Shown here: positions 1,839 through 10,222 of the stretch, in pieces
How the letters are laid out: each line of letters opens with the position of its first letter
Numbering within the stretch: position 1 is the stretch's first letter
Assembly: GCA_902761355.1 (NCBI GenBank)
Contig: CACWJY010000016.1
Span: 1 to 64,000, forward strand
DNA from: Fibrobacter succinogenes
Lineage (GTDB): Bacteria > Fibrobacterota > Fibrobacteria > Fibrobacterales > Fibrobacteraceae
DNA length: 64,000 nt
Reading direction: 5' to 3'
The notes under the pieces: generated by a model
Told to the model about the DNA's origin: nothing
What the model saw: the letters and a program-made list of their open reading frames with translations, nothing else
Database searches by the model: none
Translations under genes and position numbers: made by a program

Positions 1839-2966
1839 TCAAGCCTCGGGCGGCGGTTCGGCATCAGACTCTACAATCGTGTCAGCTTTCTTCTGAATTT
1901 TATCCAGATAAACGAGACACAGGCAAGTAAAGGGAATCGCAACAATCAAGCCCAAGAATCCAAGCAACTTTCCCCATATCGAGAGCGACAAGAGAATGCC
2001 TACAGGCGGCAAATCCATTGACGAACCGACAATCTTTGGGACCAAGAACATGTCCTCAATAATCTGCACAATCAAATAAACGATGCAGACAATCACGGCC
2101 ACTTCCCAAAAGGGCATTCCTTTGTCTAGAGCATAGACTACCGCTAGCAGTAGGGCCACGGGGATGGTCGCAAGTTGCAGATACGGTACCATGTTCAACG
2201 CACCAGAGAATAATCCAAAGGCAACCCCCATAGGCAGTCCGATAATACCGAAACCGATTGCATACAAAATACCAACCGTCAAGGCAACCAGCGACTGTGC
2301 GCGGAAATAACTACCCATGAACATATCCATCTTCTTTGCAAAATCAGACGCACCTTCTTTATACCTTGTCGGGAACAGTTTCTTGATACCGCCCCTGAGC
2401 TTAGGCATATCAAGCATAATGAACACCAAGTACATAAAAATAAGGAATGCTCCCGAAAGCCCTACTAACAAATTAGATGTTTTAGTCAAAACGCTCCAAG
2501 CACTCGGCAAGACTTTTCCTGCCACCGACTGAGCGGCATTCCAAAAGTCCAAGCTCTGCATGGCCACAGCGACTTTATTCCACGAGATGAGTGTCTTTAT
2601 TTCTTGCCACAAGTTTTTAGGGACAAACATCGAAAGACGATCTGCCCAGGTAGAATCACTAAACAACTTAGGAATCAATTCGCCCAAGTGCCGGATTTCT
2701 CCGACAACCATCGGCACAAAAATCCACAAGGCGCCACCAACTACCACAATCATCAAAGAAATCACAGCAATCACGGCAACAATACGATACTTTACCTTGC
2801 CCTGAATTTTACAGACAAGCGGATCAAAAATATAAGCCACCAAGAATGCCGCAAAGAAAGGAGCCAAGACGCCGCTCAGATAATGCAAGACCCATAGCAA
2901 GACACCTAAGCCAGCAGCCAAAATCACCAACCGCATAACGCGATCAACCGTCCAAATTCGCCTCAT
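1839..2966 (-). CDS. AI-2E family transporter (PF01594-type membrane protein)
   Basis: This is a 375-aa inner-membrane protein with about eight hydrophobic segments. The C-terminal pattern typical of the family is visible, including an IVQIIEDMFLVPKIVG stretch and a following SLSIWGKLLG segment. Members include the AI-2 exporter TqsA and Na+/H+ antiporters, so the substrate cannot be read from sequence. The length is normal for the family. Its ATG overlaps the stop of the upstream gene by 4 nt (ATGA), so it is translationally coupled and is the last gene of the 5152-1839 operon. No convincing hairpin follows it. Confidence 0.85.
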   Translation of the reverse strand: MRRIWTVDRVMRLVILAAGLGVLLWVLHYLSGVLAPFFAAFLVAYIFDPLVCKIQGKVKYRIVAVIAVISLMIVVVGGALWIFVPMVVGEIRHLGELIPKLFSDSTWADRLSMFVPKNLWQEIKTLISWNKVAVAMQSLDFWNAAQSVAGKVLPSAWSVLTKTSNLLVGLSGAFLIFMYLVFIMLDMPKLRGGIKKLFPTRYKEGASDFAKKMDMFMGSYFRAQSLVALTVGILYAIGFGIIGLPMGVAFGLFSGALNMVPYLQLATIPVALLLAVVYALDKGMPFWEVAVIVCIVYLIVQIIEDMFLVPKIVGSSMDLPPVGILLSLSIWGKLLGFLGLIVAIPFTCLCLVYLDKIQKKADTIVESDAEPPPEA

Positions 2967-3895
2967 TTTTTATTCCTGTATTCTAATGGCTTTATACCGT
3001 AAACGCAGACAAATTCTTTTTCAAATACACCAGAATTTTTTGCACCAACGGCAATTGCGATTTCGGCAATAGACCGATCCGATTCTTTCAAAAGTTTTGC
3101 GGCTTTTTCCATTCGCTTTTTCAGCTCCTCACGCTTTTTCAAGCGCCTGGCAACACGACTTTCGGAATTACGGACCGCAAGCGAAACATAGCCCGCATAA
3201 ACAAGGACTATCACCACCAGCAGTACGCACATCAAAGCCTTGAACGTTCGATTTTCACCACATAACCTTATGGAGCGCACCACGATTTCATCCGGAATTC
3301 CAAGCATCGTTCCTTCGCCATTTGTAATTTCAAAGAACATGCCACGATTCATATACCGCAGTCCATCGTCCTTGTCGAGCCCCTGCATGGCAAGCCACCA
3401 CTCAGGCACCTTAAAGTCGAGCATCGAAATGACAACACCGCTTTTTTTATTCAGAACCTTCACCGGAGCCTGGGCCACCATCGGGCGATAACTCTGATAC
3501 TCGTTCTTTTTACTGTACACCGGGTCGTCATTCAATATCTTGACACCAACGCGTTGCATGCGTCCCGTTTCGACATCAATTACAAGTGAATCAAAATCCG
3601 AAAAATCAAAGAATCCCGATGCCGGGCGGTTATTAACCGAGAGCAAGTTTATTCCGACCCCCGCATACGGGTAAGCCATGCCCGAGCGAATATTCACACG
3701 AGCCGACACAACAGAATCCTCATTCGAAAGTTCGACAGTAGAAAAGCCGCCTATATTCGCATCGGACACCGCATAAACTTGATACGCTCCCCCAGGAAAA
3801 AGAATCTGCTCAGAAGTAGCAAACTTTGCAAACAGCACAATCCAGGCAACAAATAAAGCTACAAGCACAGCCGTTGCAACAGCAATCTTTTTCAT
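2963..3895 (-). CDS. bitopic membrane protein with extracytoplasmic sensor-like domain and AraC-like half HTH
   Basis: The 310-aa product has TM1 at about residues 5-25, an extracytoplasmic beta-rich domain to about 215 (with a VPEWW motif), TM2 at about 217-240, a basic linker, and a cytoplasmic tail ending near the C-terminus. The tail (SDRSIAEIAIAVGAKNSGVF, then GIKPLEYR) matches the second helix-turn-helix of AraC-family proteins and stops where those proteins stop. The first HTH is absent. The architecture suggests a membrane-embedded one-component regulator that senses an outside ligand; this is inference. Starts and stops overlap by 4 nt with both neighbours. The upstream gene encodes a similarly built partner without HTH. 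Confidence 0.7.
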   Translation of the reverse strand: MKKIAVATAVLVALFVAWIVLFAKFATSEQILFPGGAYQVYAVSDANIGGFSTVELSNEDSVVSARVNIRSGMAYPYAGVGINLLSVNNRPASGFFDFSDFDSLVIDVETGRMQRVGVKILNDDPVYSKKNEYQSYRPMVAQAPVKVLNKKSGVVISMLDFKVPEWWLAMQGLDKDDGLRYMNRGMFFEITNGEGTMLGIPDEIVVRSIRLCGENRTFKALMCVLLVVIVLVYAGYVSLAVRNSESRVARRLKKREELKKRMEKAAKLLKESDRSIAEIAIAVGAKNSGVFEKEFVCVYGIKPLEYRNKK

Positions 3896-4638
3896 GCCTT
3901 ACGCTCCGCTGATTTTTCTTCATGATCTCCGTTAGAGTGCGAGCGGCCAATAGCCACAATCATGAGTCCAAGCATAATGAAGATTACGACACCAAACGAA
4001 AAATTGCTGAGTCCCTTCGCCGTAATGCCGTAAATTACAAGAGAAAATTCCTTATGGCGCGGATGGTTCCAACCCGGGGCAAGCTCCACACGGGCTATCG
4101 TTTCTTGATGTCTATCCGTCAGCGACTTATCGACATGTTCATCATCAAACCAAAAATCCGGTGTATAGAACTGTTCCATTGGAATCGAGATTCTCTGGCG
4201 GCCACCAACAAGCGGGAGCTCCTTCAACAACAATCTGAAAGTTCTCGCTTTCAAGGTATCGGTCACGTCGGGATCATACGCCCAGATTTTCACAAGGATT
4301 TCATCGGTCCCCTTCGATTCAATATCAAAAATGACCGAATCCACAAAATTCCAATCGCGATAGCGTTTATCACCCTGTTCACGAATATCAAAGACAAGGC
4401 CACACCATGCGCCCTGACTTTCTTCGCCACCAAGCGTACAACTAAACGAAAGCGAGGAATCCGTCCGAGCAAACTGGGTTTTTGACAATCCCCCGTCAAA
4501 AGAATCATCGTACGATTCAACAGAGGCATCCCCAAGCAAAGGAAAAACGGAATCTTCGAAATGGCGGCTCGGCAGCATAAAATACACGCCAAGGACAACC
4601 GCGGCAATCGCTACAAGTATGATATAAGTCTTAGCCAT
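3892..4638 (-). CDS. bitopic membrane protein, paralog-like partner of the HTH protein
   Basis: The 248-aa product has an N-terminal TM at about residues 5-22, an extracytoplasmic domain at about 25-210, a second TM at about 214-234, and a short hydrophilic cytoplasmic tail rich in Lys and Glu. The outer domain carries YDDSFDGG near its start and FYTPDFWF near its end. This resembles the layout of CBM11/CIA30-type jelly rolls, but only weakly, and no family is claimed. Topology and domain size mirror the next gene, which adds an HTH, so the two may form a heteromeric sensor. It overlaps the zinc-ribbon gene upstream by 8 nt and the HTH gene downstream by 4 nt. Confidence 0.65.
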   Translation of the reverse strand: MAKTYIILVAIAAVVLGVYFMLPSRHFEDSVFPLLGDASVESYDDSFDGGLSKTQFARTDSSLSFSCTLGGEESQGAWCGLVFDIREQGDKRYRDWNFVDSVIFDIESKGTDEILVKIWAYDPDVTDTLKARTFRLLLKELPLVGGRQRISIPMEQFYTPDFWFDDEHVDKSLTDRHQETIARVELAPGWNHPRHKEFSLVIYGITAKGLSNFSFGVVIFIMLGLMIVAIGRSHSNGDHEEKSAERKA

Positions 4639-5152: not shown

Positions 5153-5158
5153 ATAATT

Positions 5159-5165
5159 GAATATA
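5159..5165 (-). promoter_or_regulatory. TATATTC box, 6 nt before ATG of zinc-ribbon gene
   Basis: Minus-strand TATATTC is followed by six bases and the ATG at 5152, with no Shine-Dalgarno. Its spacing matches ten other genes here and predicts a leaderless mRNA. It lies only 8 nt from the divergent box at 5174. Confidence 0.5.
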
Positions 5166-5173
5166 GTTATTTC

Positions 5174-5180
5174 TATATTT
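5174..5180 (+). promoter_or_regulatory. TATATTT box, 5 nt before ATG
   Basis: TATATTT-AGAGT-ATG precedes the thioredoxin/TPR gene. There is no room for a leader or a normal Shine-Dalgarno. Confidence 0.55.
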
Positions 5181-5185
5181 AGAGT

Positions 5186-6993: not shown

Positions 6994-8106
6994 TTAGAAC
7001 AAGGCGATGCTATACGGAGCCTGAGCACCCTTGGGCTGTTCAAGAGCCTTAAGCTTACCATCCTTATAGACATATACCTTTTCTTCGCCATAAGTATGGT
7101 CGCCCACATAGAGAACGCCATTCTTAACAGCCATCGTCTTCTGGGCATCAGCGATACCCTCAACCTTTTCAAAGGTCTTTTTCTCAAGGTCTATCTTTAC
7201 TACCGGAGTACTTCCCCAGCCGTTATAAATGGCGGCATAGGCAGTTTCTTCTTCAGCAACAAAGCCATAGATACCGGCGCCAAGTTTTTCACCAGAGATA
7301 ATCAGTTCGGACTTCTTGGCCTTAAGATCCACCTTTTCAACACCACGATTATCGTCAGCCTTACCATCATATTCACCCAAAGAGGCTACATAAAGGTCGC
7401 CTTTATACAAAGACATTGCAGTCGGATTATTCGTCACAAGCTGAACTGTATCCTGAAGTTTGCCGGTTTCAGCATCGTAGATTGCCACGAGGCCTCTCGG
7501 ATAGGTGAAATTGTATTCAGCATCAGCACTATAACGCACAAACAAAGCGTAGAGTACGCCTTTGGCAAGCTCGATATCAGCAACATAAGGAGAAGTCTCT
7601 CCTTCAGAAGCGAATTCACCAGTCTTGATTGATTTCAGGACCTTGCCGTCCTTGGTGGAAATCTGCACGAGTGAATCTGCATTTTGGAGAGCGACCCATG
7701 CCTTTTCGCCATCGAAAACCATATCAACCGGGTTTGCATTTGCAAATTTTTCCTGCCAAACCACAGCCTTTTCTGCGCCATCGTTGATAAGCTCCGGATT
7801 GACCTTGGAAATATTATCTGTTCCTAGACCTTCCAAAACATACACATCATTACCATTGGTGACTACTTTTGAATCCTGATAGAACGAAAGGCTCTTTTCA
7901 GAAATCTTTCCATCCTTATCGATCCAGCGAAGTTCACCTTCCGGAACCTGATAATCACCACCATCGAATACAACACCGGCATAAGCCGAGGTTTCTTCTT
8001 CCGGAACATTCGTAGAAGAACTAGAGTCATTACCGCAAGCCACGAGACCAAAAGCAAGGCCGGCAGCAGCAAGGGCCGCGAGAGATTGTTTTTTGATTTT
8101 ATTCAT
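6994..8106 (-). CDS. beta-propeller lipoprotein, BtuG/YncE-like
   Basis: The 370-aa product has a signal peptide with lipobox LVAC (Cys24), a Ser-rich spacer, then repeated four-stranded blades of the YncE/YVTN propeller type. Visible blade motifs include NPVDMVFDGEKAWVALQNAD, GLVAIYDAETGKLQDT and DLYVASLGEYDG. In Bacteroides, BtuG is a surface propeller lipoprotein that captures vitamin B12 for BtuB. Here the gene follows a BtuB-like receptor by 40 nt, behind a cobalamin riboswitch. The B12-capture role is therefore inferred from context, not from binding residues. An AAAGGA ribosome site precedes the ATG. Confidence 0.75.
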   Translation of the reverse strand: MNKIKKQSLAALAAAGLAFGLVACGNDSSSSTNVPEEETSAYAGVVFDGGDYQVPEGELRWIDKDGKISEKSLSFYQDSKVVTNGNDVYVLEGLGTDNISKVNPELINDGAEKAVVWQEKFANANPVDMVFDGEKAWVALQNADSLVQISTKDGKVLKSIKTGEFASEGETSPYVADIELAKGVLYALFVRYSADAEYNFTYPRGLVAIYDAETGKLQDTVQLVTNNPTAMSLYKGDLYVASLGEYDGKADDNRGVEKVDLKAKKSELIISGEKLGAGIYGFVAEEETAYAAIYNGWGSTPVVKIDLEKKTFEKVEGIADAQKTMAVKNGVLYVGDHTYGEEKVYVYKDGKLKALEQPKGAQAPYSIALF

Positions 8107-8146: not shown

Positions 8147-10222
8147 CTAGAACCCCTGGATGATTGTGAACTTATATTCACGCCCTGGTACAGGAAAGGG
8201 CGTATAGAAATTTCGATACTTTTCGTTTGTTATGTTATTCACAGCAAACATCAAGCGGGTCTTTTCAAACGGATTATACGAAAGCGATGCACGATGAGTC
8301 GCAACAGCAGGCTGTTCAGTCCTGTTCGCACGATCGCTATACATAATACTGCGCCAATCAGAAGCCCAACTAAAGTCAAAGTGGAACGGCAGATGAAGCG
8401 TTGCCTCAGCAAAATAATTCCGATCTGGTTCTCCAGGAAGCTTATTTCCATTAAACGTATTCGAATGTGAACGATCCTCCGTCTTCTGAATCGTTGCCCG
8501 CAGCACAACATCTAAAAACTTTGAAGGGCTGCTATTCAATTCCATTTCTACGCCACGAATAAGGGCTCGCGCAACATTGATGGGGCGCAATAATTCCGTC
8601 GAAAGAACCCAGCAGATTCCATTTTCAATGTGGGATTCAAAATACGTTGTCTGAAACGAAGTGTGGCTACCAGGGAATTTATAATTTGCTGAAGCTTCAA
8701 AACGAGTCGCCTTTTCGCGTTCCAGATCAGGATTCGATATCGCACCAGGAAATGTTCCATAAAGTTCCATCAATGCCGGTTGCTGATAAAAACGACCAAT
8801 AGACACTTCGCCTGTCAACGGAGACGACTCAGCACCAAACCTAGAATAGAAACGTCCCGCAAACGAAGCATCACGTTCCTTGGCATCTTCCAAAGTCCGC
8901 CCACCCGTCGGCAGTACAAAAGTTCCTTCATCCAGATGGTCTTTCAGCACCTGCGCCGAGCCCTCACCGCCCAAACCGACATATTTAAAGACCTGGTAAT
9001 ACAAATCCCCAGAACCAATGAAATTTTTCCGATCAAGTGCCCAATCCTTCGAATTGCCCCGAGCTTCGGCGCGTTCCCATTCATATGCAAAGCGGATCAT
9101 TCCTGTCAAGCGTTCCACCGGCCTAAACTCCGCCCAAAATTCAGGAACAACTTTGTATGTAGCGGAACCATATTCCATAAAGACATTGTTGCCAAAACCG
9201 ATATGATCCAAGGGGTAATACGAACTCGACATATTTTTGTCGAGACGCGCCGAAAGTCCGCCGTACAAGAACAGCTTATCGTCAAAGTAACCGACCGATT
9301 CCAACCCGTAACGAATCAAAGCCGATTCACCAACAAACTCAGCGACTTTGGTCTGGTTTTGTTCTTTACCAGGATTTCCGCCCTCGTACCGAGTAGCCGT
9401 CACAGCAAGCGTCGAGAAATACCCGTTTCCATGTAGCATTCGAAACTGCACATTACCCGAGACATCGGTATATTGGGCATTTTCCCGTTTTGCCGTATAG
9501 TCATCTTTACTGTTGTATTGGGTGCCGTTGCGGTTCAAATACTCATAATCATTATCGCTATGCCGAGTCGCAAAAGACGAGGCAAACATAAGGCTATCGG
9601 TCACAGGCGTACTCACCTGGAAAGAGCCTTCCCACAAATTATGGCTACCATAAGCAGCCATAACTCGCCCCCCTTTTTTCACCGCATTTTTCGTTACGAA
9701 GTTAATTGCGCCGCCAAGCCCCGAAACACCGAATTTTGCAGGGACATTGTTCTTGTAGACCTCGATTTTTTCCATCTGATTCAAGTCAATGGAGCCAAGA
9801 TTTACCGCACCACCGCTCGCATCGTTCAGAGGAACTCCATCGACACAAATCAATATATTTCTCGCAGCAACACCTCGCACAGATACCGTTTGAAAGCTTC
9901 CCAATCCACCTTGCCTGTACGCTTGAATTCCTGGAAGTGTTGAAAGCAAATCTGCAGCCGAAAGGGCCTTACCTTCCCATGCCGCAGCGGTAATTTCAGT
10001 ATAACCGGCATTCTTTATCAGGATGGTTTCGCCATCGGTCACGACCTCGGTCATTCCCAAATTTTGCGTCGGAGTCGCATCGTCAACAGCGACAGATTTA
10101 GATGCAGAAACGACCGTCGGATCCATATCCGAAGGTTGCGCCACGGCATACCCTATGCCAAGGATCGCATAGCACCAAAGAGCCGCAGTTCTTGCGGCTT
10201 TGCAGAATGACGTCGTTCGCAT
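8147..10222 (-). CDS. btuB: TonB-dependent outer-membrane receptor, BtuB-like
   Basis: The 691-aa product has a signal peptide ending near AVAQ. A plug domain follows at about residues 60-170: ALSAADLLSTLPGIQAYRQG, VSVRGVAARNILICVDGVP and GLGGAINFVTK. The rest is a 22-strand-type barrel ending in an aromatic residue (IIQGF), with a NITNEKY motif near the end. The receptor imports a ligand across the outer membrane using TonB energy. The cobalamin riboswitch directly upstream makes vitamin B12 or another corrinoid the likely ligand. GAGG lies 5 nt before the ATG, close to the riboswitch 3' end, so ligand binding could mask translation start. Confidence 0.85.
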   Translation of the reverse strand: MRTTSFCKAARTAALWCYAILGIGYAVAQPSDMDPTVVSASKSVAVDDATPTQNLGMTEVVTDGETILIKNAGYTEITAAAWEGKALSAADLLSTLPGIQAYRQGGLGSFQTVSVRGVAARNILICVDGVPLNDASGGAVNLGSIDLNQMEKIEVYKNNVPAKFGVSGLGGAINFVTKNAVKKGGRVMAAYGSHNLWEGSFQVSTPVTDSLMFASSFATRHSDNDYEYLNRNGTQYNSKDDYTAKRENAQYTDVSGNVQFRMLHGNGYFSTLAVTATRYEGGNPGKEQNQTKVAEFVGESALIRYGLESVGYFDDKLFLYGGLSARLDKNMSSSYYPLDHIGFGNNVFMEYGSATYKVVPEFWAEFRPVERLTGMIRFAYEWERAEARGNSKDWALDRKNFIGSGDLYYQVFKYVGLGGEGSAQVLKDHLDEGTFVLPTGGRTLEDAKERDASFAGRFYSRFGAESSPLTGEVSIGRFYQQPALMELYGTFPGAISNPDLEREKATRFEASANYKFPGSHTSFQTTYFESHIENGICWVLSTELLRPINVARALIRGVEMELNSSPSKFLDVVLRATIQKTEDRSHSNTFNGNKLPGEPDRNYFAEATLHLPFHFDFSWASDWRSIMYSDRANRTEQPAVATHRASLSYNPFEKTRLMFAVNNITNEKYRNFYTPFPVPGREYKFTIIQGF

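Follow-up and report, generated by a model that had tools for sequence, protein, structure and literature searches.

Gene content of the operon

The window, by which we mean the whole stretch of DNA analysed, comprises 64,000 nucleotides of Fibrobacter succinogenes (GenBank assembly GCA_902761355.1, contig CACWJY010000016.1, positions 1-64,000 of the forward strand). It contains an operon of four minus-strand genes in the order Z-A-B-T, with each junction overlapping by 4-8 bp (Table 1). The first-pass annotation had placed a zinc-ribbon protein and an AI-2E family transporter in this operon, and profile matches agree: Z resembles Zn_ribbon_TFIIB (E 3e-4, slightly under the curated cut-off) and T matches PF01594 over its whole length (residues 16-356, E 1.3e-49). 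The suggestion in the first-pass annotation that T could be a ligand exporter draws on no more than its family name. A and B had been described as adjacent, overlapping genes with a common TM-outer domain-TM plan, and the open reading frames, which share 4 bp, and the hydropathy profiles bear this out. Hydropathy gives two TM segments per protein, at about residues 1-26 and 207-235 of A and at about residues 1-29 and 214-244 of B.

Table 1. Coordinates of the operon genes and of their domains and elements in the window
Feature	Position	Strand	Remarks
Z, zinc-ribbon protein, operon gene 1, 173 aa	4631..5152	-	8-bp overlap with A
A, TM-outer domain-TM, without cytoplasmic domain, 248 aa	3892..4638	-	
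A outer domain, residues 27-211, predicted CBM11/CIA30-like jelly-roll	4006..4560	-	
B, TM-outer domain-TM-half AraC tail, 310 aa	2963..3895	-	4-bp overlap with A, 4-bp overlap with T
B outer domain, residues 30-213, predicted CBM11/CIA30-like jelly-roll	3257..3808	-	
B TM2 and basic linker, residues 214-257	3125..3256	-	predicted model
B half AraC domain, residues 258-308, linker helix and second HTH without first HTH	2972..3124	-	
T, AI-2E family transporter (PF01594), 375 aa, final operon gene	1839..2966	-	
TATATT box, 7 nt ahead of the Z ATG	5160..5165	-	comparison of relatives' upstream regions

Outer domains of A and B

The outer regions of A and B are homologous. A search with B retrieves A at E 2.2e-6, and the A profile retrieves B orthologs with a best E of 1.7e-25. 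AlphaFold models of both proteins were built on orthologs (eight sequences each; mean pLDDT 77-79) and compared with known structures by Foldseek. The outer domain of A matches CIA30/NDUFAF1 (7zkq, E 1.8e-9) and CtCBM11 (1v0a, E 1.6e-8, TM-score 0.62 by target); that of B matches the same structures (7zkq, E 1.8e-7; CBM11 1v0a, E 3.5e-6, TM-score 0.60 by target). A CBM11/CIA30-like jelly-roll is thus the predicted fold of the two outer domains, which agrees with the CBM or jelly-roll fold for which the first-pass annotation had asked a test. By sequence, the Pfam CIA30 family is matched by B at E 0.037 and by one ortholog at E 0.0013, both under the cut-off; A has no Pfam CIA30 match, and the A profile has no match among PDB sequences. 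The jelly-roll is shared, in the predicted models, with CBM11 of Clostridium thermocellum Lic26A-Cel5E (TM-scores 0.60-0.62) and with CIA30/NDUFAF1, but A and B are joined to no enzyme part, have no part in complex I assembly, and the match of B to CIA30 in sequence lies under the cut-off. Naming a ligand from the gene neighborhood was considered and dropped because the distant relatives with full AraC domains have varied neighbors: YchF, AdoHcyase, one GH10, one CBM_4_9 and a glycosyltransferase.

The half AraC domain of B

Residues 260-308 of B align with positions 31-79 of the 80 positions of Pfam HTH_18 (E 6e-8; 33.3 bits, with the cut-off at 33.6), and one ortholog scores above the cut-off for HTH_18 and also for HTH_AraC. 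Of the 103 positions of a local AraC model, B covers only those from about 50 onward, and the AraC-type NCBIfam and PDB matches of B all fall on the last part of the AraC domain. The signature I/V-x-E-I-A...G...F...F...P...Y/F-R of the second AraC/XylS HTH is present in the tail. AlphaFold places helices at residues 276-282, 288-299 and 303-308 (pLDDT about 83-89) and predicts TM2, the linker and the AraC linker helix as a single continuous helix, residues 216-271. The HTH_18 match and these helices agree with the earlier proposal that only B carries a tail and that it folds like the last AraC HTH. Residues 241-310 are basic, with 20 K/R to 10 D/E. Weak Pfam matches to TcA_TcB_BD, DUF5305, DUF2681 and T2SSM, and others to kinesin and ribosomal protein L28, were judged chance matches to coiled-coil or TM sequence.

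AraC/XylS regulators are recognized by a domain of about 100 residues with two HTHs. Orthologs of B in three genera have this domain; B itself falls outside the definition, yet it plainly descends from an AraC protein. Its tail is like MarA, Rob and AraC in the linker helix and second HTH, both by sequence and by predicted fold, and unlike them in having no first HTH, in being tethered to the membrane and in the unusual residues fixed in the recognition helix. A frameshift, or a first HTH hidden nearby, was ruled out: the truncation is identical in 38 copies, and within the operons the AraC model matches B only.

Across the 38 half-HTH copies there are invariant columns, and several differ from 18 full relatives. 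The Q/P ahead of the first helix has become S (38/38), the N/T/G of the recognition helix has become E (38/38), and the aromatic residue following the VG turn has become E, A or V in all copies but one (37/38). K/R is retained in 36 of the 38 at the column that we take to be that of MarA R96; the fixed E occupies what is presumably the T95 column. The length of the linker differs by about 9 residues among clades. In the part of the literature that was covered, we found no half-AraC membrane protein and no paper on a Z-A-B-T operon.

Distribution and history of the tail

A total of 91 operon copies with B were collected in the family, 90 of them with a usable A; a few share one genome. Many of the genomes are draft assemblies, and each tail state was seen in several good ones. 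The A-B pair does not stand alone: it belongs to an operon found throughout the family, and the tail of B there is full, half or missing. The complete two-HTH AraC domain (HMM positions 2-103 of 103) occurs in five copies from three other genera, the half domain in 38 copies, all from Fibrobacter and always without HTH1, and the tail is absent from 48 copies, in part of Fibrobacter and in five other genera. An A ortholog lies beside B in every operon fetched, so that the co-conservation asked of the pair is strict, and no family member examined has a DNA-binding domain in A. The order A-B-T is retained in all operons checked, even those without a tail or without Z. Z-A-B-T is the order in Fibrobacter and most genera examined; two of the genera with a full AraC domain have A-B-T without Z. 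Genus g17 (L149-L152, L154) has a diverged A-like protein and no B, in a different context, mostly behind two small unnamed genes.

Phylogenetic trees calculated from A and the B sensor, with the tail excluded, demand at least 7 changes of tail state. The starred branches alone impose at least 5 changes for the absent state and at least 3 for the half state, and 0% of the bootstrap trees unite either state as one group. The trees thus require several independent tail losses, if the changes they record were losses. The count of changes does not by itself decide between loss and gain; loss is favored because the rooting genera, like the wider sensor family, have the complete domain. The half state is present in several deep Fibrobacter lineages, and it is most simply read as ancestral to the genus and lost several times later. 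One of the losses is recent: in two genomes an in-frame deletion of 150 nt has left the final residues AYRRENA in place, and near-identical relatives retain the HTH.

Selection on the sensors, TM2 and tail

The dN/dS ratio of each region of B was computed over 14 independent species pairs. The half HTH gives 0.105 (bootstrap 0.069-0.148), the sensor 0.086, and TM2 with the linker (residues 215-257) 0.174. The half HTH is clearly under strong purifying selection and is not drifting debris. In the lineages without a tail the sensors are still constrained (dN/dS of A 0.091, of B 0.102), and TM2 of B relaxes on complete loss of the tail, from 0.124 to 0.326 in a small sample. Relaxation of TM2 beside constrained sensors fits a signal that reaches the tail by way of TM2. 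Taken with the distribution of tail states, B looks like a regulator that has partly lost its DNA-binding end and whose remaining half is still under selection.

Related sensors and co-component systems

Homologous sensors elsewhere in the Fibrobacterota precede full AraC domains. The membrane one-component AraC regulators of other Fibrobacterota at L055-L065, L072-L074, L135-L137, L147 and L148 share the TM-jelly-roll-TM plan of B, and those at L135-L137, L147 and L148 are the B of the same operon; unlike Fibrobacter B, these relatives have both HTHs of the AraC domain. The genome from which the window comes holds, besides A and B, a third sensor of this kind, which fronts a GGDEF domain (G000 C5:28225-29247; locus L002, 1021-2355). 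Its sensor is homologous to that of B and has the same TM plan, but the output is a diguanylate cyclase domain instead. This diguanylate cyclase adjoins a CE2-like esterase and was found in nearly all Fibrobacter genomes searched. No AI-2E-type transporter lies beside the sensors with AraC or GGDEF outputs in the loci examined. These loci point to a family of CBM-like sensors coupled to AraC and GGDEF domains in the Fibrobacterota, with a bearing on how fiber-degrading rumen bacteria may sense their environment.

The co-component systems VtrA/VtrC, ToxR/ToxS and TcpP/TcpH consist of a membrane transcription factor and a neighboring membrane partner without a DNA-binding domain, the two genes often overlapping; they are characterized by a CadC-like N-terminal HTH, one TM helix and a lipocalin-like periplasmic partner (PMC9214523). 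A and B share this gene plan, with an overlap of 4 bp and co-conservation in all operons fetched. The statement in the first-pass annotation that no described system has such a pairing was too strong, since VtrA/VtrC and ToxR/ToxS have the same plan with other folds (PMC9214523). B differs from the co-component factors in that its HTH is C-terminal and an AraC-type half and in having two TMs, and the pair differs in that the partners are paralogs, both with predicted CBM11/CIA30-like jelly-rolls as outer domains.

Possible function of the A-B pair

The reading we prefer, to which we give a probability of about 0.45, is that B derives from an AraC-type one-component regulator of the membrane and that its half HTH reads DNA as a dimer, with the paralog A as co-sensor. 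The ancestor of B would have consisted of TM1, a periplasmic, ligand-binding CBM11/CIA30-like jelly-roll, TM2 and an AraC domain with both HTHs, and A would be its paralogous partner without a DNA-binding domain, the two most likely forming a heteromeric inner-membrane receptor for an envelope ligand such as a saccharide. Deletion of the first HTH would date to the ancestor of Fibrobacter and would have left the linker helix and second HTH fused onto the continuous TM2 helix. A ligand, perhaps a saccharide, would shift the A-B assembly and, through TM2, change the arrangement of the tails. In the species that retain it, this genome among them, the half HTH would be functional and probably dimeric, two B chains providing two HTHs and so restoring a reader like that of AraC, while A would adjust the assembly. 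Several lineages would subsequently have lost the half HTH and retained A, B and the transporter alone. The class of ligand, the contact between A and B, the dimerization of B and DNA binding by the half HTH are what we infer in this scheme. A lone HTH is unlikely to bind, and the missing HTH1 drives recognition in MarA and Rob, so either a dimer of half domains or a protein-contact switch must be assumed. The A-B-T core is retained without the tail in many species, which suggests an essential role in the envelope, with control of transcription as a detachable output.

Several observations count against a DNA-reading dimer. The HTH that drives recognition in MarA and Rob is the first one, and their second can rest on the backbone (PMC8279559); B has lost the first. 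This loss also speaks for a half HTH that contacts a protein on the cytoplasmic side, such as RNA polymerase, another regulator, A or T, and does not read DNA. Comparison of the Z upstream regions of relatives revealed no conserved operator upstream of the operon, the variation of about 9 residues in the linker does not favor one rigid coiled-coil dimer, and repeated loss implies that the tail is dispensable. The fixed changes in and beside the recognition helix may mean that the half HTH has ceased to read DNA. A protein-contact module would accommodate the fixed E, at what we take to be the MarA T95 column, and the lost conserved aromatic, together with the strong selection on the half HTH. 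No partner for it was identified, however, and the K/R retained at the presumed R96 column and the basic tail suit DNA; we consider such a module rather unlikely.

A and B may instead serve chiefly in the periplasm, helping to assemble the AI-2E-family transporter or acting as its scaffold, comparable to CIA30/NDUFAF1, with the tail as an option. The best fold match is indeed this mitochondrial assembly factor, the A-B-transporter order is constant in the operons checked even where the tail or Z is missing, and the sensors are constrained without a tail. CBM11 scores about equally to CIA30, however, and homologous sensors drive AraC and GGDEF outputs with no adjoining transporter in the loci examined, which makes signalling the common theme and the scaffold improbable. 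That the tail is what remains of an AraC domain in the course of loss, with little function left, is suggested by the stepwise full, half and absent states with repeated loss and by the clean in-frame deletion in two near relatives; against it stand the dN/dS of the half HTH, which at about 0.1 largely refutes a neutral relic as the main reading, and the invariant columns across 38 copies, and we regard a relic as very unlikely.

The preferred reading can be extended to a working half AraC domain, that is, a membrane-tethered single HTH as old as the genus and under selection, reading DNA only as a dimer through a two-paralog periplasmic receptor. It would be an intermediate favored by selection as a one-component regulator loses its DNA-binding end step by step. 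This combination is tentative and, taken as a whole, doubtful. If true, AraC HTHs can be separated in nature, and one of the two suffices to stay useful on a membrane receptor. The series of full, half and absent tails in one vertically inherited operon provides a natural set for studying how signalling outputs are gained and lost.

Region upstream of Z

The TATATT box is the sole element upstream of Z that is widely kept among relatives; the rest of the region is highly variable. Autoregulation through a conserved operator was rejected for this reason. The box is kept before Z in most relatives, which suggests leaderless transcripts. In the window, the 33 bp at 5153-5185 between Z and a divergent thioredoxin-TPR gene contain an inverted repeat, AATATAG...CTATATT, which amounts to the TATATT box a few nucleotides ahead of the start codon on both strands. 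A stretch of about 70 bp (CATACCCCAGAGCGCCATAGGCGCGACC...) directly ahead of Z is nearly identical in L026, L030, L031, L156 and L180. These loci are from species of distant Fibrobacter clades, whose sisters carry other, often repeat-like, sequence ahead of Z, and exact copies of the core of the stretch are otherwise rare in these genomes. Farther along the window, positions 6994-8106 encode a 370-aa lipoprotein-like protein with a signal sequence ending in LVAC and no Pfam match; its gene adjoins a TonB-receptor-like ORF at 8147-10222.
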